Below the pieces are notes generated by a model. It made no database searches, was not told the origin of the DNA, and saw only the letters and a list, made by a program, of their open reading frames with translations. This document shows, in pieces, positions 3,237 through 11,382 of a stretch of DNA of 20,460 nucleotides. The stretch covers positions 1 through 20,460 of the IMG/VR virus record IMGVR_UViG_3300035698_023293; one strand, given 5' to 3'. A program made the position numbers and the translations under genes. This DNA comes from a virus. Every line of letters begins with the position of its first letter. The stretch's first letter is position 1.

Positions 3237-6068
3237 TCATCGGGGTTTCATCAGGGGGTGACAGACGTGTCGCACGCCGGTGATGGTGCACGAACGGGCG
3301 TCGAAGCTGTTGAGGATGATCTCCTGGCGGTCCACGTCGCCGGCAACGTCGGCCAGGTGCCAGCCGTCGTCCTCGACGCCCGACGAATCCGTCGCGCTGA
3401 AGAACGTGGACTGTTCGACCACGCCGGTGTCCTTGGGCATCGCGGTCACGCGGTAGGTGCCCGCGTCCTTGTGCCGGACGATGAGCCGCTCGCTGTGCAG
3501 CCCGGTTTCGAGATCGGCGACGCCATTGGGCCCGGTGAGAAATGGCCGGTTGAACGTGACCGTGGCGGTGAAGCGCCGACCGATGACAGCCGGGCCCGCC
3601 CAGTTGCCCGGCACCGTGATGGTCGTGCCCGGATCGGCGTAGACCCAGTCGTCGTCCTGGTTCAGAAGCGTGCCGGCGGTCTGCGTGTTGCCGGTCAGGG
3701 CGACGACCGCGTCGAGTGTCGAGCCGCTGCCGGTCAGCGGGGCAATGTTGAAACTGGTGGTGTTTGGCCCCGCCGAGTGCGTGCCGGTGACTTCCAGGCG
3801 CCGATCGAGATGGATCGGGAAGGCCACGCCGGTGCCGTAGTCGCCCTCGGGCGTGAGGCTGATCCGTTCGAGCGTGTACTCGAAACTGACCTCGGCGAGG
3901 ATGTAGGCGTCGCCGCCGATGGTGACAACGTCGCAGATGCGGTAGCTGTCGTCGAACCGCCACCGGTGCCACGCGGCCTGCTGCTTTTCGGTCCCGACAA
4001 AGAACGTGCTGTAGACACTGAGCTTGTTGTCGTCCCGCGCCAGCACGAGCAGCACCGACGAGATCGAGTCGCCGGCCATCGACCAGATGTTGTTCGGCAG
4101 GTAGCCGTCGGCGTGCACCGTGGTCGGGTAGGCCAGATTGGACAGCGCGGTGTCGTCGTAGAGGTACTCGTACACCGTGGTCGTCATGTTCTGCTCGGTG
4201 CCGAAGTAGAGGTTGTTGCCCACGACCGCGGGCCGGACCGGCGCGGCCCGGTAGGCGGTGGCCGGCGTGACAGCGATGGTTTCGGCGGTGATCGTTTCCG
4301 GCGTGCCCACGTCGAACTGCTGGCCGTTGGCTGTAAAGACGAGCAGCGATCGCCGGAACGGGGACAGGAACTGCACCTTGGCGATCTCTCGGTCGCCCAC
4401 GCGCGTGTCGATCGGGTCATCGGCGGCCCGGGCCTCGTCGTCGCGGACGAAGAAGTCGAGCAGGTCCTCCGAGCGGCTGACCGCGAGAAACTCGTCGCCG
4501 CCGAGCCAGAGCCGCCCGCGGTGGTACGCGCCGTCGGCAATGGCCTTGCCCTCGCGGAAGAGCCGCGGGGCCGGGTTGCTGGTGGCGTCGCCGCTCTGTC
4601 GGTCGTCGAATGCTGTGACGTCGATCGTGAACGTGTTGAGCGCCGTGCGGACCATTGACACCGGCATCTTGGCCGGATCGAGCCTGCCGCCAATGTCGGC
4701 AGGCGCCGCGGTGCGGACCCATCGCAGGACCGGTCTGGACCGCTGGCCGATGGCCGAGGCGTTGCCCGCGCCATTCGTGGCCACGGCGGTTGAGTTGTAG
4801 AACGGGTCCACGGCGTTGTTGGTCAGGTCGTTGCCGACGACCGCGTCAACGGGCGCGGCGGTGCCGAGCACGGCGGCGCCGGTGCCCCGCCACGGGGCGG
4901 TGACCTGGAACCTGCCCGCGCCGGTCGTCGATGGAATCCACGAGACAAGGGCGTCCCGGGCCCCGGCCTGCTCCATGGCATCGCGGAGGCGGTCGGCCAC
5001 GTCGTGCATGGACCGCTCGGTGGCAAAGCCGAAGTCCTGCACCACGTCAACCGAGATGCCGATCGAGTTGGCGGTGACGTCGGTAGGGTTGGTGCCGCCG
5101 ATAGCCGACCCAAGGATGATGGCGTCGTCGCTGACCTTTTGGATGATCTCGTACCACCCGGCGGTGACGCCCGTGCCGCCCGTGACTCGGAGCTGGTCCC
5201 CTTTTTCCCACACGTAGCCCGCAAACGCGCCGATCTTGGCCAGTGCGTTGGTGCTGTTGGCGCTGGAGATGCCCGTATCGCTGAACGCCACCCGCTGGAA
5301 GGCGATATTGAAGCCCACGGTGCCGGCGGTGCCGCCATCACCATTGGTGGTGCTCCAGAGTTTCGGGCTGGCCCACTGGGGCGTGCCCGATCCGGCGCCG
5401 CCAACGGTCTGGAAGAGCATCGTGGCGAACGTGACGTCGGCGCTGGCCCCGTCTTGGTCGATCTGGTGCTGGAAGTGCCCGGCGGGCTCTCGCTCGGTGC
5501 TTTCCGTGGTGCGGGCGTAGAGCCCGCCTGCGGGCGTCCAGTTGATGAGGTCGGCAAAGGTCGGTCGGGTGCCATCGACGGCGTAGGACGGGGTCGTGGC
5601 GAGCCCGGTGGCCACAAGCTGGTTGATGATGAGCGTGGTGTCGGCGATCGAGACCGCTCGCAGTTGCCGGCCACCGGGGCTGTTGCTGGTGAGGTAGGCC
5701 GCGGCGGCGCTGCTGGTGGTCACCGAACAGATTGTGCCGTCGGTGTTGACGGCGTGGACGGTACCGCCCTCGTGGAGCATGATGATGTATTGTTCGGTCT
5801 CGTCACGAACAAGGGCGTGGGTCGTCACTTCATCGTCGGTCGCCCACTGGTAGCCCGACGAAGGCCCGCTGACTTCGGCCACCAGCGTCGAGCCTGGGCG
5901 TTTGACCATGCCGTCGGTGACGCGGTGCAGCCAGTTCTCGCTGGCGGCCACCTGCGTGGGCAGTCGCACGTGCTGGGGCTGGGTGCTGACGCCGCCAAAG
6001 AGCGGCGGGGTGTCGATCTCCACCCGCCCGTCCGGCCTGCCTGCGGGTCTGGGTCCGAACCTGGTCAC
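3237..6068 (-). CDS. Tail tubular protein B (nozzle), T7 gp12-like, enlarged
   Basis: At 943 residues this is about 150 longer than T7 gp12 (794). The hallmark N-terminus is PPLFGGVSTQPQHVRLPTQV followed by VTDGMVKRPGSTLVAEVSG, matching the gp12 pattern G.VSQQP...R...Q....N....V..G...RPGT. It forms the hexameric tail nozzle below the adaptor ring. The extra length seems to lie around residues 190-430, a Gly/Thr/Asn-rich part (for instance STTNGDGGTAGTVGFNIAFQ) suggestive of an inserted domain. The later part includes LPNNIWSMAGDSISSVLLVL, also family-like. I chose GTG 6068 because it overlaps the preceding stop (GTGA) and because the frame upstream is Arg/Pro-rich and covers the previous gene. 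The stop is followed by the next ribosome site. Confidence 0.92.
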   Translation of the reverse strand: MTRFGPRPAGRPDGRVEIDTPPLFGGVSTQPQHVRLPTQVAASENWLHRVTDGMVKRPGSTLVAEVSGPSSGYQWATDDEVTTHALVRDETEQYIIMLHEGGTVHAVNTDGTICSVTTSSAAAAYLTSNSPGGRQLRAVSIADTTLIINQLVATGLATTPSYAVDGTRPTFADLINWTPAGGLYARTTESTEREPAGHFQHQIDQDGASADVTFATMLFQTVGGAGSGTPQWASPKLWSTTNGDGGTAGTVGFNIAFQRVAFSDTGISSANSTNALAKIGAFAGYVWEKGDQLRVTGGTGVTAGWYEIIQKVSDDAIILGSAIGGTNPTDVTANSIGISVDVVQDFGFATERSMHDVADRLRDAMEQAGARDALVSWIPSTTGAGRFQVTAPWRGTGAAVLGTAAPVDAVVGNDLTNNAVDPFYNSTAVATNGAGNASAIGQRSRPVLRWVRTAAPADIGGRLDPAKMPVSMVRTALNTFTIDVTAFDDRQSGDATSNPAPRLFREGKAIADGAYHRGRLWLGGDEFLAVSRSEDLLDFFVRDDEARAADDPIDTRVGDREIAKVQFLSPFRRSLLVFTANGQQFDVGTPETITAETIAVTPATAYRAAPVRPAVVGNNLYFGTEQNMTTTVYEYLYDDTALSNLAYPTTVHADGYLPNNIWSMAGDSISSVLLVLARDDNKLSVYSTFFVGTEKQQAAWHRWRFDDSYRICDVVTIGGDAYILAEVSFEYTLERISLTPEGDYGTGVAFPIHLDRRLEVTGTHSAGPNTTSFNIAPLTGSGSTLDAVVALTGNTQTAGTLLNQDDDWVYADPGTTITVPGNWAGPAVIGRRFTATVTFNRPFLTGPNGVADLETGLHSERLIVRHKDAGTYRVTAMPKDTGVVEQSTFFSATDSSGVEDDGWHLADVAGDVDRQEIILNSFDARSCTITGVRHVCHPLMKPR

Positions 6069-6676
6069 GCGCCGGCGTCCGTCGGGCCCGGCCCGGCGTT
6101 CTGGGTCGGGATGAGCTGGCCCACGACCGGGCCGCGGTTCATCTCCCACCGGGGATGGCGGGGCACGCGGACGTCGGCGTCGTAGGCTTCCTGCACGAGC
6201 CATGCGTCGGTGTTGCCCATGCCCTTTTCTCGCCGCTGGAACCGGACCGCGGCCACCTTGGTGATGAGGTCTTTGATGGGCTGGCCGAGCGTGTCGAAGG
6301 CTGCGGTGCTGACGGTGTCGAAGATGAAGTCGGTGCCGTCGGTGAAGACGCTGTTGGCCCCGGCGTTGACGTCGAAGACGTTGCCGTCGCGGATGACCCA
6401 GTTGTTGAACCAGTCCTTGCCGCCGGCGCGGAGTTCGATGACGCCCGCGGGGACCGCGATGACGTTGCCGGCGGTGCCGGTGAGGGTCACGCCGAGGCGG
6501 ACGTTTTCGAGCCAGCCGAAGGCGAGGATGCGCTCGGTGTCGCGGGCGAGGATTTCGCGGGCCTTGGCCGCCGCGTCGGTGTAGCCGGCGGCGGGGAGCG
6601 TGGATACGCCTTGGTGGCCGGCGGCGCGGAGCATGAAGTTGACCGCCTGGATTTCGGTAAGGCCGGGGCTTGCCAT
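6065..6676 (-). CDS. Tail tubular protein A-like protein, copy 2 (T7 gp11-like)
   Basis: This is a 203-residue protein. The N-terminus LTEIQAVNFMLRAAGHQGVS and TLPAAGYTDAAAKAREILAR closely follow the T7 gp11 start (sequence AVN.ILASIGE..VSTLEG and a helical continuation). The GW motif is at ILAFGWLEN, then VTLTGTAGNVIAVPAGVIEL, the VFTDGTDFIFD strand and PIKDLITKVAAVRFQRREKG. The gene sits directly before the tail tubular B gene, the T7 order 11-12, so this copy is the likelier classical adaptor. The start at 6676 has CAGGAGACTGACCC upstream. The stop is shared as GTGA with the next start. It is clearly related to but diverged from the copy at 8078-8671. Confidence 0.86.
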   Translation of the reverse strand: MASPGLTEIQAVNFMLRAAGHQGVSTLPAAGYTDAAAKAREILARDTERILAFGWLENVRLGVTLTGTAGNVIAVPAGVIELRAGGKDWFNNWVIRDGNVFDVNAGANSVFTDGTDFIFDTVSTAAFDTLGQPIKDLITKVAAVRFQRREKGMGNTDAWLVQEAYDADVRVPRHPRWEMNRGPVVGQLIPTQNAGPGPTDAGA

Positions 6677-6679
6677 GGG

Positions 6680-7684
6680 TCAGTCTCCTGCGGGCGCAAG
6701 GGTGTCAAGGGGGTTGTCTGTGTTGGCCACGGGCAGGCCCATGTGTTCACGGAACAGGGTGTCGCTGATGTCGATGCCGATGGTGTCGTTGAGTTTGGCG
6801 GCCGCGTCAAGCGGGGCCTTGGCGAGCACTGCAAGCACTTCGGCGCCCAGCCGCCGCCGCATGAACGGATCGAGGGTGTCTCGGGCGTATTCGGGCCACA
6901 GGATGGTCGTGCCCACAAGGGCGTTGTGCTGGCGGCCGTGGTCTGGACAACTCAGACCGGACGCACCCTGCCAGTTCTGGCCCTCGGCTCGCTCGCTCCA
7001 GAAAACGTGCCTAGTCGTGGTGTCCTTGAGAAGAAGAATCTCGTAGCCCTTGGCGTAGGCCGCCAGGCTCATGTATTCCTCTTCCCAGCCCCACCCTCGG
7101 AAGAGGGGGCAGTAGCCGCCGAGTTCTTCGAGTACGCGACGATCGAAGACATAGCACCCGCCGCACATGGCCGGGATCGGGATGGCGACGGCGTCCGGCG
7201 AGGCTTTGGCGGTGGTTTGGTTCATGTCACGCCACTGCACGCGCCATGAGCCGTCGCTGTAGAGCCCGAACCGGCCGCCCTCGTAGCGGCCCGGACGTTC
7301 GCCGCCGGCCAGTGTGGACGGGCAAAGGACTTGGCCCGGGTGCTCGGCCGCGTGGCGGAGCAGATGCTCGGTAAAGTTCCGGTTGACCTGCACGTGCGAG
7401 TCGCTGATGACGACAAGGTCACCAGTGCACCGCTCTGCGGCAGCACGCTTGGCGCCGCCCGAGCCGAGCGGCTGGCCCTCGTTGCGGACGACTTTGATGG
7501 TCGTGCCCGGGGGTGGCTTGAGCCCGCAGAGTCTTTCTGAGACCCGGACAAGGCTGTTGTCGTCGTAGACCACGATCTCGATGGGCCTCGGCTGGCAGGC
7601 CATGTAGCCGGTGACGGTGGCTTCGAGTTCCGGCCCCTCGTTGATCGTGGCGATGGCGACGGACACGGTTTCGGGTGTGGTCAT
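6680..7684 (-). CDS. Family-2-type glycosyltransferase with polypeptide GalNAc-transferase-like motifs
   Basis: This is a 334-residue GT-A-fold glycosyltransferase. It starts VSVAIATINEGPELEATVTG; nucleotide-binding acids are in IVVYDDNS (Asp41-Asp42); and the metal-binding motif is DSH (95-97) in VVISDSHVQV, where most GT2 enzymes have DXD but polypeptide GalNAc-transferases have DSH. Then come AMCGGCYVFDRRVLEELGGY (173-191), WGWEEEYMSL (198-207), comparable with the WGGEN acceptor-site motif, and TRHVFW (225-229), comparable with the HVF whose His is the third metal ligand. No lectin domain and no membrane segment are seen, so it is presumably cytoplasmic. The donor sugar cannot be deduced. 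The start ATG 7684 overlaps the stop of the Thr-rich gene, so acceptor and enzyme may be made together. It ends three bases before the next gene. Confidence 0.92.
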   Translation of the reverse strand: MTTPETVSVAIATINEGPELEATVTGYMACQPRPIEIVVYDDNSLVRVSERLCGLKPPPGTTIKVVRNEGQPLGSGGAKRAAAERCTGDLVVISDSHVQVNRNFTEHLLRHAAEHPGQVLCPSTLAGGERPGRYEGGRFGLYSDGSWRVQWRDMNQTTAKASPDAVAIPIPAMCGGCYVFDRRVLEELGGYCPLFRGWGWEEEYMSLAAYAKGYEILLLKDTTTRHVFWSERAEGQNWQGASGLSCPDHGRQHNALVGTTILWPEYARDTLDPFMRRRLGAEVLAVLAKAPLDAAAKLNDTIGIDISDTLFREHMGLPVANTDNPLDTLAPAGD

Positions 7685-8064
7685 TCGGGTACCAGTGTGG
7701 TTTGGCCTGTGCCGCTTGTGGTGACTGAAAGTTCCGTGCTTGCTCTGGTCGTGCTCGCAGTTGTTTCCGTAGTTGTTTCCGTAGTTGTTTCCGTAGTTGT
7801 TTCCGTAGTTGTTTCCGTAGTTGTTTCCGAAGTTGTTTCCGAAGTTGTTTCCGAAGTTGTTTCCGAAGTTGTTTCCGAAGTTGTTTCCGAAGTTGTTTCC
7901 GAAGTTGTTTCCGAAGTTGTTTCCGAAGTTGTGGTGGTCGGGTCGCACGACACCGGTGTGATGCCGCCGGCGCACGAGCCGATGGTGACAATGCCGCCGT
8001 GCGCGACGGTGACGACCGTGATACTGCCCGCGCACGAGCCGATGGCGGAAATGGCCGGGCTCAT
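7681..8064 (-). CDS. Thr/Ser/Glu-rich repeat protein, mucin-like, probable glycosylation acceptor
   Basis: This is a 127-residue protein in three parts. Residues 1-40 are small and hydrophobic with a 20-residue imperfect duplication (IGSCAGSIT... and IGSCAGGIT...) and three Cys. Residues 47-102 are nine SETT followed by five TETT units, encoded by a 12-base tandem repeat. Residues 103-127 are again Thr/Ser-rich (ASTTRASTELSVTTSGTGQT). I chose this frame because Thr and Ser enrichment continues outside the repeat on both sides, because the start at 8064 has GAGGG ten bases upstream, and because its stop overlaps the glycosyltransferase start as ATGA. Other frames give Arg/His-rich flanks. The tract resembles O-glycosylated mucin-type linkers. 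No family is recognised; a virion surface or tail-associated role is inferred from its neighbours. Confidence 0.7.
   Translation of the reverse strand: MSPAISAIGSCAGSITVVTVAHGGIVTIGSCAGGITPVSCDPTTTTSETTSETTSETTSETTSETTSETTSETTSETTSETTTETTTETTTETTTETTTETTASTTRASTELSVTTSGTGQTTLVPE
7759..7926. repeat. 12-base tandem repeat, 14 perfect units in two blocks
   Basis: Fourteen units of agttgtttccg(t/a) follow each other without any indel. The first five on the plus strand (7759-7818) end in t and the next nine (7819-7926) end in a. This is the only difference, and it changes Thr to Ser in the encoded unit. A degenerate half-unit follows at 7927-7938. Identity at synonymous positions points to recent expansion by slippage or unequal exchange. 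As the unit is a multiple of three, copy-number change keeps the frame. Confidence 0.97.
7970..8045. repeat. 16-base direct repeat spaced 60 bases
   Basis: The 16 bases gcgcacgagccgatgg occur at 7970-7985 and 8030-8045, exactly 60 bases apart and in the same frame. They encode the duplicated IGSCAG of the repeat protein's N-terminal part, indicating an old 20-codon duplication that has partly diverged. Confidence 0.85.
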
Positions 8065-8077
8065 CGGAGAACAGCCC

Positions 8078-8671
8078 TCATGAGAGCGGCAGCCCGCCGG
8101 TGACGCGGCTGCCCAGCACGGTCTGGGCGCTGTGGGTGTGGAGCAGGTTGGTGTTCCGCAGTCGCGCGTCGTCGCGGTAAGCCTCTGCCGTGGCCCGCTC
8201 GCGCTCCTCAAACAGACCGCGGACCATGGCCCGGGGGATGTCGCCCTTCTGCTCGGTGAACCGGAGCTGGGTCTCGGCCACGATCAGCCGCTGCACGTGG
8301 TAGGGGATGCACCCGAAGGCGTAGTAGTAGACGATCCTCGTGCGGATGGGGTTGTCAAACTGGTCGGTGTTGTGCTCGCGGTCAAAGAGGAACGACCCGA
8401 GTTGGGTGACGTCACAGGACAGGCTCTGCGCGTCTGAGTCGATCTGGATGGTGCCGGTGGGCAGAGCGATCTTCTTGGTGCTGACGTCCGGCGTGAGTTC
8501 CACGTCGCGTCGCTCGTTGAAGTTCCAGCCCCGCTGCTGGGTGTCGAGACTGACCTGGTCGAGCATGTCCTCGATCCGGCCCGCATCGCTCTCTTCCCCA
8601 GTCTGGAGCGCCGCCACCGCGCCCATGCCCACCCGCCGCATGATCCGCTGGACCGCGTCGAGTTTGGTCAT
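8078..8671 (-). CDS. Tail tubular protein A-like protein, copy 1 (T7 gp11-like)
   Basis: This 197-residue protein has the length of T7 gp11 (196). The start TKLDAVQRIMRRVGMGAVAA, the DTQQRGWNFN segment, VELTPDVSTKKIALPTGTIQ and the late helical part (HVQRLIVAETQLRFTEQKGD, LFEERERATAEAY) follow the gp11 pattern of an N-terminal helix pair, a GW motif, a short beta part beginning with a Pro, and a long C-terminal helix. gp11-type proteins form the dodecameric adaptor between portal and nozzle. A second copy lies at 6065-6676; by eye the two share the AV, GW and VxLT...(A/V)LP/VP.G.I positions. The gene begins three bases after the tailspike stop and is followed after 13 bases by the Thr-rich gene. 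Confidence 0.78.
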   Translation of the reverse strand: MTKLDAVQRIMRRVGMGAVAALQTGEESDAGRIEDMLDQVSLDTQQRGWNFNERRDVELTPDVSTKKIALPTGTIQIDSDAQSLSCDVTQLGSFLFDREHNTDQFDNPIRTRIVYYYAFGCIPYHVQRLIVAETQLRFTEQKGDIPRAMVRGLFEERERATAEAYRDDARLRNTNLLHTHSAQTVLGSRVTGGLPLS

Positions 8672-8674
8672 GGT

Positions 8675-10930
8675 TTACACATCCGTGATGCCGATATTGT
8701 TGAGCACGACCGCCGTGCCGAGCGCCTGCCCGCTCACGTCGAGCGTCGTGCCGTTCGTCGCCGTCACGTAGTTGTGCACGATAAAGACGTTGGTCGATTC
8801 GGCGGTCTCGGTACGGATGCCGTCGTCGGCCGACGTGATGTGGTTGCCTTCAATCCAGCACTGGTCGGCATTGTTGAGCAGCACGCCCGCGCCGCCCGAG
8901 GTGTCGGCGCCGTTGATCGTGCAGCCGCGGATTTTGGTGTTCGTCGAGTTGGTCACGAGCACGCCGAGGCCGCTCGTCGTGCTCGCGCCCTCGATGGCGC
9001 TGTCGGCGATCGTCACGCCAGCGCAGCCGGTCAGGACCATGCCCGCCGAGGCGTTGGCGAAGATGTCACACCCGATCACCTTGGCGGTCGTGACGGCGTT
9101 GAGCGTGAACCCATTGCCGGCGGAGTAGACCGCGGTGTGGACGCCGAGCATCACCACGTCGGTCGAGTCGCGGATCTCGTTGGCCGACGCGCCCGGGTTG
9201 GTCGTCGCGGTGCTGGGCATGAGGCACCGGACGTTGGCCAGCGTCAGGCGGTCGCAGAATCGCGCGAGGATCGGACGCACGTTGTTGAGCGTGCCGGCCT
9301 CGACCGTCAGGCCGTCGATCACGACGTTGCGGGTACGGAACGTGGCGTCGCCGGCGGTGCCGATCTCCAGGATCGTGCCGCGACCGTTGGCCGCGGCCAG
9401 ATGCCGCACGACGGTGGCATACAGATGCACGTCGTCAAGATTCGCCGAGCCCGCACTGGCGTTGCTGGCGGTGATCTTGATCGCGGGCGACACGCCGCCT
9501 GCACTGGTGCTGTCGCCCAAATACTCGCAGACGGTGCCGCTGAGCACCACGCCGCGACCGCCCTTGTTGCCCACCGGCAACGTCGAGTGCTCGAGTCCCA
9601 TGATCCAGACGCACGAGCCCGACCGCGCCCGCGCGGTGCAGCCCGTCACGGTCACGCTGCGCGGCGAGTGCATATAGATCGCGTGGCTGGTCGGGGTGTC
9701 GGTCAGGTTCTCAAACAGGCACGAGTCGAACTTGATCCGCTGCGCGGTCGGGGTGATCTGCATCGCGCCGCGGGTCGTCTCGCTCGTCACGGCCTCGCAG
9801 CCGGCGGCCCAGTGGTCGAGACACTCGTGGGTGATGCGCCATGCGTCGTAGGCGCCGCTCTCGTAGCGGTTGTCGCTCTCGCGCACGAACCGGCAGCGGG
9901 CGTAGACCGCCGCGAAACTGCCCTCGGCGGTCGTGGCCTGCGGGCGCATGTTGATGACGCGCACCCGCTCGATCGCAGCGCTGTCGGTGTGGATGACGTT
10001 GAGCCCGATGTGGAAGTTATCCGCCGAGTCGATGCTGGGCGGGCTCCCTGTTTGATTCGCCCCGTTTCCGTCAATGGTCAGGTCGGCAATCTCGATGCCA
10101 ACCGCACGGTCGCCGGTCGGCGTGCCGGATTCCCCGTAGGTGCTGATGGCCGCGAAGCAGTCGTGATCGTCGTTGGTGTAAGTGTTGACTTGATTCGCTG
10201 TCAAGTGGAAGTTGTCGGCCATCTTCACCGTGGTCCGGTACTTGCCGGCGCCGATGAGTTTCACAAAGCTTTTGGACGGCAGGATTGTCTTCGTGATGGT
10301 GTAGGTGCCTGCCTCCAACAAAACTGTGCCGCCACCGGCCTCGGTGGCTCGGTCAATGGCTTGGTTGATGCTGGTGTCGGATGCACCGGTGGGGACGGTT
10401 TCTCGGTACTCGTTCTGGGTTTGCGGGTCGGCATCGCCGACAAGGCGGGCTTCGACAACGGTGTCGGACTGGCCGCCGCCAGTAATGGCCAGTGCGGTCT
10501 TGATCGTGACAAGCACTTCGTTGGTGCTGGCAAGGTCAACAATCTTTGGCTGGGTGTAGTACCGGTCCTTGAAGATGCCGTCTGTGCTGGCGCGGTCGAT
10601 GGTGATGTCGGCGCTGTCGCCGCTCTTGAGCAACTGCCACGCGCCATCACCGCTGCGGCCCCACACGTTGAAGACCGGCACGGTGTCGAACGTGACGCCG
10701 ACCGCATAAGACAGTCGCAGAGCAAGGCCGGTGCCCTGTCCATTTGTGTTGAGGCTCCAGCGTTCTGCCAGAAGTCGCACAGATGCTGGGTCGGTCGTGC
10801 CCGCGCCGCCACCATCGGCGTCGTCAAGCGTGCCAGGCATGGCCGCCTCGATCCAGAGTGAGCCAGTAACGCGACCAACAAAGTCGTTGCTATCGACCGG
10901 CAAGTCTCTGGGGCCGTTGTCAACACTCAT
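8675..10930 (-). CDS. Tailspike with right-handed beta-helix (pectate-lyase-like)
   Basis: This 751-residue protein starts at ATG 10930, which overlaps the previous stop. The N-terminal 165 or so residues are beta-rich and probably attach to the tail. From about residue 187 the sequence INQAIDRATEAGGGTVLLEA, then GTYTITKTI, is the standard entry to a pectate-lyase-3-type beta-helix. The remainder is a long series of short coils with repeated signatures such as GVLVTNSTNTKIRGCTI, GAGVLLNNADQCWIEGNHIT and IRDSTDVVMLGVH. Such trimeric spikes bind and often cleave host surface polysaccharide. The catalytic residues cannot be assigned from sequence alone. The location between capsid and tail tubular genes is unusual, since T7 has its fibre gene at the far end. 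The long frame extending to 11203 is an artefact of GC-rich codons over the lipoprotein gene. Confidence 0.8.
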   Translation of the reverse strand: MSVDNGPRDLPVDSNDFVGRVTGSLWIEAAMPGTLDDADGGGAGTTDPASVRLLAERWSLNTNGQGTGLALRLSYAVGVTFDTVPVFNVWGRSGDGAWQLLKSGDSADITIDRASTDGIFKDRYYTQPKIVDLASTNEVLVTIKTALAITGGGQSDTVVEARLVGDADPQTQNEYRETVPTGASDTSINQAIDRATEAGGGTVLLEAGTYTITKTILPSKSFVKLIGAGKYRTTVKMADNFHLTANQVNTYTNDDHDCFAAISTYGESGTPTGDRAVGIEIADLTIDGNGANQTGSPPSIDSADNFHIGLNVIHTDSAAIERVRVINMRPQATTAEGSFAAVYARCRFVRESDNRYESGAYDAWRITHECLDHWAAGCEAVTSETTRGAMQITPTAQRIKFDSCLFENLTDTPTSHAIYMHSPRSVTVTGCTARARSGSCVWIMGLEHSTLPVGNKGGRGVVLSGTVCEYLGDSTSAGGVSPAIKITASNASAGSANLDDVHLYATVVRHLAAANGRGTILEIGTAGDATFRTRNVVIDGLTVEAGTLNNVRPILARFCDRLTLANVRCLMPSTATTNPGASANEIRDSTDVVMLGVHTAVYSAGNGFTLNAVTTAKVIGCDIFANASAGMVLTGCAGVTIADSAIEGASTTSGLGVLVTNSTNTKIRGCTINGADTSGGAGVLLNNADQCWIEGNHITSADDGIRTETAESTNVFIVHNYVTATNGTTLDVSGQALGTAVVLNNIGITDV

Positions 10931-11382
10931 TGTCCGGCTCCCTTGCTGATCTTGGCCCCGGTATCGAGGCCCTTGTTGTACGAGCGTTCCTTGTCGCGGC
11001 GCTTGCCGCCGGCGCCGAGCACGTAGCCGATGAGGCCGAGCACACCGGGCACGGCGGTGCCGACGACCGGCACGCCGGCGACCATCGGGCCGACGTCGTT
11101 CAGGGCGCCCATCGTGAGCTGCCCGAGCATGTTTCTGATCTCGTTGGCCTTCTCGATGTCGGCCCGCCACGCCGCCCCGACACGCTGAGTGTCGTCGAGC
11201 CACGCGGCGTATTCGTCCTGCGATTCATTGAGCGTCATGCGGGACGGGAGGCCCTGCTCCTGCTGCACCTGCACCGGCGTGGGCACGCGGACCACGTCGC
11301 CGTAGTCGCAGCCCGAAACGCCCATGAGGGCCGCGGTGATGGCCAGTGCGGCGAAGATCACGAGCACGGTCTTGGTGGTCAT
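10927..11382 (-). CDS. Lipoprotein with C-terminal membrane segment; candidate unimolecular spanin
   Basis: This is a 151-residue protein. The N-terminus is a type II signal: TTK, a hydrophobic core (VLVIFAALAITAALMG) and the lipobox VSGC with Cys25. Residues 26-98 form a soluble, partly helical domain (YAAWLDDTQRVGAAWRADIE). Residues about 100-124 form a Gly/Val-rich membrane segment (VAGVPVVGTAVPGVLGLIGY), followed directly by the basic KRRDKERS tail, as expected for a cytoplasmic C-terminus. A lipid anchor at one end and a membrane segment at the other is the layout of u-spanins such as T1 gp11, which link outer and inner membranes during lysis. Asp at position +2 after Cys would favour inner-membrane retention in enterobacteria, which argues against an outer-membrane anchor unless the host sorts differently. 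It overlaps both neighbours by 4 bases (ATGA). Confidence 0.65.
   Translation of the reverse strand: MTTKTVLVIFAALAITAALMGVSGCDYGDVVRVPTPVQVQQEQGLPSRMTLNESQDEYAAWLDDTQRVGAAWRADIEKANEIRNMLGQLTMGALNDVGPMVAGVPVVGTAVPGVLGLIGYVLGAGGKRRDKERSYNKGLDTGAKISKGAGQ

Follow-up and report, generated by a model that had tools for sequence, protein, structure and literature searches.

A threonine-rich repeat protein overlaps a gene for a GalNAc-transferase-like enzyme in the tail module of a T7-like phage, and such pairs recur in other phages

The DNA analyzed here, a 20,460-base IMG/VR record (the window, meaning the whole stretch at its full length), is a piece of a divergent T7-like phage genome, as judged from family matches and gene order. 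The minus strand holds everything: RNA polymerase, portal, scaffold, capsid, a beta-helix spike, two gp11-like tubes, a nozzle and internal proteins, with the scaffold and the internal proteins named solely from their position. The window phage is only about 25-32% identical to its named relatives. Within the tail module lie the following features.

3237..6203, minus strand: nozzle, or tail tubular protein B (T7 gp12-like; PF25675 5e-96, phrog_457 5.6e-102); the true start is possibly downstream of 6203
6065..6676, minus strand: second, divergent T7 gp11-like tail tubular protein (PF17212 3.9e-15, phrog_446 7.6e-20), the downstream neighbor of the pair
6680..7684, minus strand: GalNAc-transferase-like GT-A glycosyltransferase, 334 aa (PF00535 7.3e-17, PDB matches, alignments, AF2 model); motifs from alignments are D43, DSH 95-97, CGG 174-176, WGWEEE 198-203 and HVF 226-228
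7681..7684, minus strand: ATGA overlap of the repeat-protein stop (TGA) with the glycosyltransferase start (ATG), read from the sequence
7681..8064, minus strand: Thr/Ser-rich mucin-like repeat protein, 127 aa (open reading frame, with the frame backed by codon statistics)
7759..7932, minus strand: 12-bp tandem array of 14.5 copies coding for 14 (S/T)ETT units (TRF score 313, 99% matches)
8078..8671, minus strand: first T7 gp11-like tail tubular protein (PF17212 7.4e-30, phrog_446 2e-35), the upstream neighbor of the pair

By Pfam and PHROGs, the glycosyltransferase gene sits inside the virion structural module, between two tail-tube genes. The earlier note had placed the pair in a phage tail gene cluster, and this holds: both neighbors belong to the PF17212/phrog_446 tube family, and the nozzle protein follows. 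The two gp11-like proteins are 23% identical across 177 columns and possibly form two different adaptor rings; these two divergent copies flank the cassette, and the named relatives checked have one copy. The Autographiviridae tail modules of Paadamvirus RHEph01 and TRX32-1, which are among the nearest named phages by tail proteins, show the same order as the window (capsid, tube A, tube B/nozzle, internal proteins) but lack its extra tube A gene, its repeat protein and its glycosyltransferase. As these phages keep the capsid, tube A and tube B genes but not the repeat-glycosyltransferase cassette, that cassette looks, from gene order, like an insertion in the tail module. Scans of viral contigs in which the two tube A proteins and the capsid protein served as queries turned up no close relative of the phage, which left no sister genomes for comparing the pair. 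Upstream of the tube genes, the right-handed beta-helix tail spike (8675-11203, minus strand) has weak tail-spike models as its best PHROG matches (1.6e-6). A candidate single-protein spanin (u-spanin) is encoded at 10927-11382 (minus strand): this protein of 151 aa has a lipobox-like signal (LMGVSGC) at its N-terminal end and a hydrophobic segment in the C-terminal half, and it has no family match in Pfam or PHROGs.

The repeat protein consists of an N-terminal segment of 42 residues (MSPAISAIGSCAGSITVVTVAHGGIVTIGSCAGGITPVSCDP), the (S/T)ETT repeats and a Thr/Ser-rich C-terminal tail. Its coordinates and composition are as first described: there are 49 Thr, 19 Ser and 16 Glu in 127 residues, and 56 consecutive residues (47-102) make up 14 (S/T)ETT units, 9 SETT and then 5 TETT. 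No trustworthy family match was found in Pfam, PHROGs or NCBIfam. As in mucin-type PTS domains, Thr and Ser account for 58 of the last 86 residues and there are 14 tandem units; the Pro-rich character of such domains is lacking, as the array has no Pro and a Glu at every fourth residue. Its TRF score, copy number and match rate imply that the 12-bp array did not arise by chance. The array has 41% GC, against 67% for the window; this low GC, together with the near identity of its DNA units, makes a recent slippage expansion, in frame-keeping steps, the probable origin.

The 12-mer has a stop codon in none of its frames, so openness by itself is no proof of the SETT frame. Indeed, the glycosyltransferase frame is open upstream to 8035, giving a 451-aa open reading frame that reads FGNN through the array. 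We therefore relied on codon usage in the flanks. The 44 codons of the N-terminal flank score +19.7 bits in the SETT frame (GC3 0.91), as against -47.8 and -21.2 bits in the other two minus frames and +1.1 bits in the best plus-strand frame. The C-terminal flank is less clear: the SETT frame scores -7.2 bits there, and the two alternative minus frames -13.8 and -12.0. We accept the SETT frame because the N-terminal flank shows phage codon usage in that frame only. These statistics speak against the single fusion in which an FGNN-repeat domain would be joined to the glycosyltransferase in one 451-aa product, a very improbable reading despite the frame being open from 8035: it takes the poorer N-flank score (-21.2 versus +19.7 bits), needs a GTG start and would be rich in Arg and His, as GC-rich DNA read out of frame typically is. 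The start and stop of the repeat gene also fit its neighbors: its ATG lies 13 bp past the stop of the tube gene, with GAGGG upstream, and its end overlaps the next gene. This ATGA overlap, already seen in the earlier note, is present at 7681-7684 and is expected to couple translation of the repeat protein and the enzyme.

Pfam assigns the enzyme to glycosyltransferase family 2. When it was searched against the PDB with phmmer, the first 16 matches were polypeptide GalNAc-transferases, a Toxoplasma entry included (best 1.2e-9), and a profile of phage relatives matched GalNAc-T10 at 5e-22 across the catalytic domain. The DSH, WGWEEE and HVF motifs that had been reported are at residues 95-97, 198-203 and 226-228; of these, DSH, W198-G199-W200-E201 and H226 align with GalNAc-T2 and GalNAc-T10. 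The aligned residues of GalNAc-T2 are D224/H226, E334 and H359, and D43 of the window enzyme aligns with the uridine site. Across a set of seven phage sequences, the D-x-H pair (D95 and H97 in the window enzyme), one Glu of the WGxE/GGEE region and the later His (H226) are invariant. Beyond HVF, the GalNAc-transferase loop appears not to be conserved (HVFWSERAEGQNW, with Arg replaced by Trp), in a region that is poorly modeled; Arg362 and Tyr367 of GalNAc-T2 are the catalytic flexible-loop residues there.

GT27 enzymes attach sugars to mucins in animals and carry a type II membrane anchor and a C-terminal ricin-B lectin domain. With these enzymes (animal and Toxoplasma GalNAc-transferases) the window enzyme shares the GT-A domain, DSH, GG, WGxE and the later His, and the protein encoded beside it is Thr/Ser-rich, as are GalNAc-transferase substrates. 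It differs in being a cytosolic phage enzyme of 334 aa with neither anchor nor lectin domain (hydropathy gave no membrane span, and Pfam no Ricin_B match at E<=1), in having WGWE rather than WGGE and apparently in its post-HVF loop; its repeat neighbor also differs from favored GT27 substrates in being Glu-rich and Pro-free. Because the anchor and the lectin domain are absent and activity is only predicted, we do not class it as GT27. From its sequence, it appears to be a soluble GT-A enzyme that resembles the catalytic domain of polypeptide GalNAc-transferases.

Structure prediction had been proposed as a way to separate GT27 from GT2 relatives, and it did so in part. The AF2 model of the window enzyme is moderate (pLDDT 64, pTM 0.70) and poor after residue 230, and the alignment behind it contained no GalNAc-transferase sequence. 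With Foldseek, the best 50 matches listed were all GalNAc-transferases (4.7e-17). VIA-align, in contrast, gave GalNAc-T2 a Z of 22.7 (190 residues, 2.3 A, 27% identity) in a tie with WrtF and K4CP (22.4 each), implying that fold alone does not assign the family. The GalNAc-transferase likeness claimed in the earlier note was nevertheless first by phmmer, by profile and by Foldseek, and sequence and predicted fold together favor a GalNAc-transferase. A related viral enzyme beside a Thr-rich gene, at locus L062, gave a better model (pLDDT 88.5); the first 29 VIA-align rows were GalNAc-transferases (Z 23.5-19.4, about 255 residues at 3 A), and the next family was K4CP (Z 18.1). This enzyme had no phmmer match in the PDB.

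Close relatives of the window enzyme are scarce. By tblastn it had no match at 1e-3 in named phages, its closest mycobacteriophage matches (galactosyl- and glycosyltransferases) reaching only E about 1; the enzymes of L062 and of another viral locus, L085, found none there either, and no significant relative of these three was present in 50,697 phage records. The L060 enzyme found TarP among named phages, and that of L012 one DxH phage and two fecal records that are DxD-like. PHROG matches for this enzyme group were absent or weak, and a plasmid search for relatives gave one match. Patterns from the window and from human GalNAc-transferase fragments gave candidates, none confirmed as a locus, and a GWGWEEE DNA pattern gave 0 viral and four chance bacterial matches. 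On the tree, the window enzyme joins L121 (85/79) on long branches, apart from the L012/L062 clade (99/97); it is not firmly placed and falls in a loose bush with bacterial DAH enzymes and GalNAc-transferases.

The same kind of Thr-rich/glycosyltransferase pair recurs in other phages. From the enzyme side, L012 was the only other DxH viral locus found; there a minor tail protein (phrog_538) with a Thr/Ser stretch of about 150 residues is encoded one small gene (about 0.3 kb) downstream of the glycosyltransferase. The first viral relative, L002, was set aside: it is a DxD-type glycosyltransferase cluster without Thr-rich genes and gives evidence neither way. From the other side, a DNA pattern scan of viral sequences for Thr runs gave at least 120 loci, 85 of them with a real Thr-rich gene among the matches listed. 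These loci are an arbitrary subset, the samples are small, and the (S/T)ETT array of the window is not of the poly-Thr type scanned for. Among the matches listed, a GT2-like gene lies directly beside the Thr-rich gene at L057, L062, L077, L086, L099 and L112; at L085 it is two genes away. Poly-Thr and Thr-Ser stretches are common in environmental phage genes (L013-L132), often broken by Ala-Pro or Pro-Pro and sometimes accompanied by Cys-rich modules.

By Pfam, GT2 was the commonest family in the next downstream gene (5 of 56, over the 85 loci among the matches listed). It was found at 1 of 63 upstream neighbors among those loci, and was not among the families listed for 119 far genes. With our own HMM, glycosyltransferases made up 5 of 487 far genes versus 5 of 56 downstream genes, a post hoc comparison (Fisher p=0.0017; p=0.008 after removing one of the related L057/L062 pair), since the downstream-only statistic was chosen once the loci had been seen. 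A within-locus permutation of two-sided adjacency, which is less open to hindsight, gave 6 of 11 loci where 2.4 were expected (p=0.015). The co-occurrence that the earlier note looked to is thus found in other environmental phages, in the permutation as in the downstream counts. DxH enzymes are 6 of the 13 glycosyltransferases among the matches listed (L057, L060, L062, L085, L086 and L121), and those beside Thr-rich genes at L099, L112 and L077 are non-DxH. At L057 (5082-7340) and L062 (4746-5165), the Thr-rich proteins encoded beside related DxH enzymes have in common a C-terminal motif that follows the Thr run (CPEDPDCNNLQF / CVDNTCNKLGF) and may serve as an anchor or a recognition tail.

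DxH enzymes also occur without such a partner. The earlier note had counted homologues in related phages with no Thr/Ser-rich neighbor against its reading, and homologues of this kind exist in Bacillota and in an isolated phage. The profile matched at E<=1e-15 in 29 of 348 Bacillota genomes, with no convincing Thr/Ser-rich neighbor within about 1.5 kb. These DAH-type enzymes (for example Cytobacillus spongiae WP_233812127) have the DxH, GalNAc-transferase-like signature of the window enzyme but, unlike it, no convincing Thr/Ser-rich neighbors; at L144-L168 they are GT2 enzymes of about 300 aa, often in tandem pairs, in about 8% of sampled species. Tunturiibacter phage Tunturi_4 encodes a DNH GalNAc-transferase-like enzyme (L176:1567-2565) between terminase and portal, and the stretches read hold no strong Thr-rich neighbor. 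DxH alone therefore predicts no mucin-like partner, and because the motif is insufficient our argument rests on the pairing. Tunturi_4 is, in addition, a cultured system for finding the acceptor of a DxH glycosyltransferase.

The case for pairing is made by the overlapping genes, the frame test, the place between virion-protein genes and the recurrence of glycosyltransferases. We predict that the window enzyme adds O-linked sugar to its Thr-rich partner and that the virion then displays this partner, and hold this somewhat likelier than an even chance. The two proteins would be co-produced in the host cytoplasm late in infection. There the enzyme would draw on a nucleotide sugar of the host (UDP-GalNAc, UDP-GlcNAc or UDP-hexose) and place its sugar on Thr and Ser of the repeats. 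The extended, acidic, sugar-bearing chain could then be anchored to the tail or particle via its short N-terminal segment and work as a glycan brush, and 12-bp in-frame slippage could change the number of glycosylation sites and leave the gene intact. Against this stand the preference of GalNAc-transferases, whose favored substrates differ from Pro-free repeats in which every fourth residue is Glu, the apparently unconserved loop after HVF and a window with no sugar-nucleotide gene.

The enzyme could instead act on another virion protein (spike, tube or capsid), with the Thr-rich protein an unmodified linker or decoration. PMC11256854 and PMC12619734, citing Freeman 2023, report virion glycosylation by phage-encoded glycosyltransferases in Che8-like mycobacteriophages, and the Tunturi_4 enzyme lies between terminase and portal without a Thr-rich neighbor. 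We consider this reading unlikely, because the start of the enzyme gene overlaps the stop of the Thr-rich gene and glycosyltransferases are over-represented directly downstream of Thr-rich genes. A little less likely again is that the array is recent, mostly neutral slippage in a minor tail protein and that the enzyme was acquired independently. The near-perfect, low-GC DNA repeat fits this, as does the frequency of Thr runs in environmental phages (at least 120 loci), most of which have no neighboring glycosyltransferase; on the other hand, the C-terminal flank is Thr/Ser-rich but non-repetitive, the N-terminal flank is codon-biased, and glycosyltransferase adjacency recurs (6 of 11 loci; 5 of 56 downstream genes).

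Modification of host surface glycans (O-antigen or capsule), altering adsorption or excluding other phages, is a common role of phage GT2 enzymes of the GtrB type, and a GtrB-like PHROG model matched the window enzyme weakly (E=0.065) and that of L060 at 1.6e-5. We judge this role distinctly improbable here: the enzyme has no membrane span, no flippase or GtrA-like gene lies beside it, its position is among late tail genes, and its metal motif and nearest structures are those of polypeptide GalNAc-transferases, not GtrB. Glycosylation of phage DNA bases is the least probable reading, for although DNA-acting virus-encoded glycosyltransferases are known (cited in PMC12619734), the tail-gene position, the GalNAc-transferase-like fold and a window without base-modification genes all speak against it.

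Phage virion glycosylation is already known. In mycobacteriophages of the Che8 type, phage-encoded glycosyltransferases are proposed to glycosylate virion proteins of the phage itself (PMC11256854 and PMC12619734, citing Freeman 2023). The phage-encoded enzyme is the feature shared with the window; the Che8-type acceptors lie at the C-terminal ends of capsid and tail-tube proteins, whereas in the window the predicted acceptor is a Thr-rich repeat protein whose gene overlaps that of a GalNAc-transferase-like enzyme. We found no description of such a phage pairing in open-licence papers; the new finding here is that the pairing recurs.

An enzyme plus a Thr-rich protein for mucin-type glycosylation is textbook eukaryotic biology. 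The recurrence of enzyme-plus-repeat pairs suggests that phages may build a predicted sugar coat of their own, and the pairing gives the poly-Thr stretches so common in environmental phage genes a possible role. More broadly, and with the balance tipping slightly against so general a claim, we tentatively predict that tailed phages evolved their own mucin-type O-glycosylation modules in more than one enzyme lineage, each with a GalNAc-transferase-like enzyme devoted to the poly-Thr or Thr-rich virion protein beside it, and that the length of the resulting glycan brush can vary through in-frame slippage of the repeats. We speculate that the coat aids adsorption, shielding or mucus binding. Making O-glycoproteins in bacteria is a possible use of the phage GalNAc-transferase-like enzymes. 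If the prediction is true, it would have consequences for the origin of GalNAc-transferases, and bacterial viruses would be makers of mucin-like coats, with a bearing on adsorption, persistence in mucus and immune recognition of phages.
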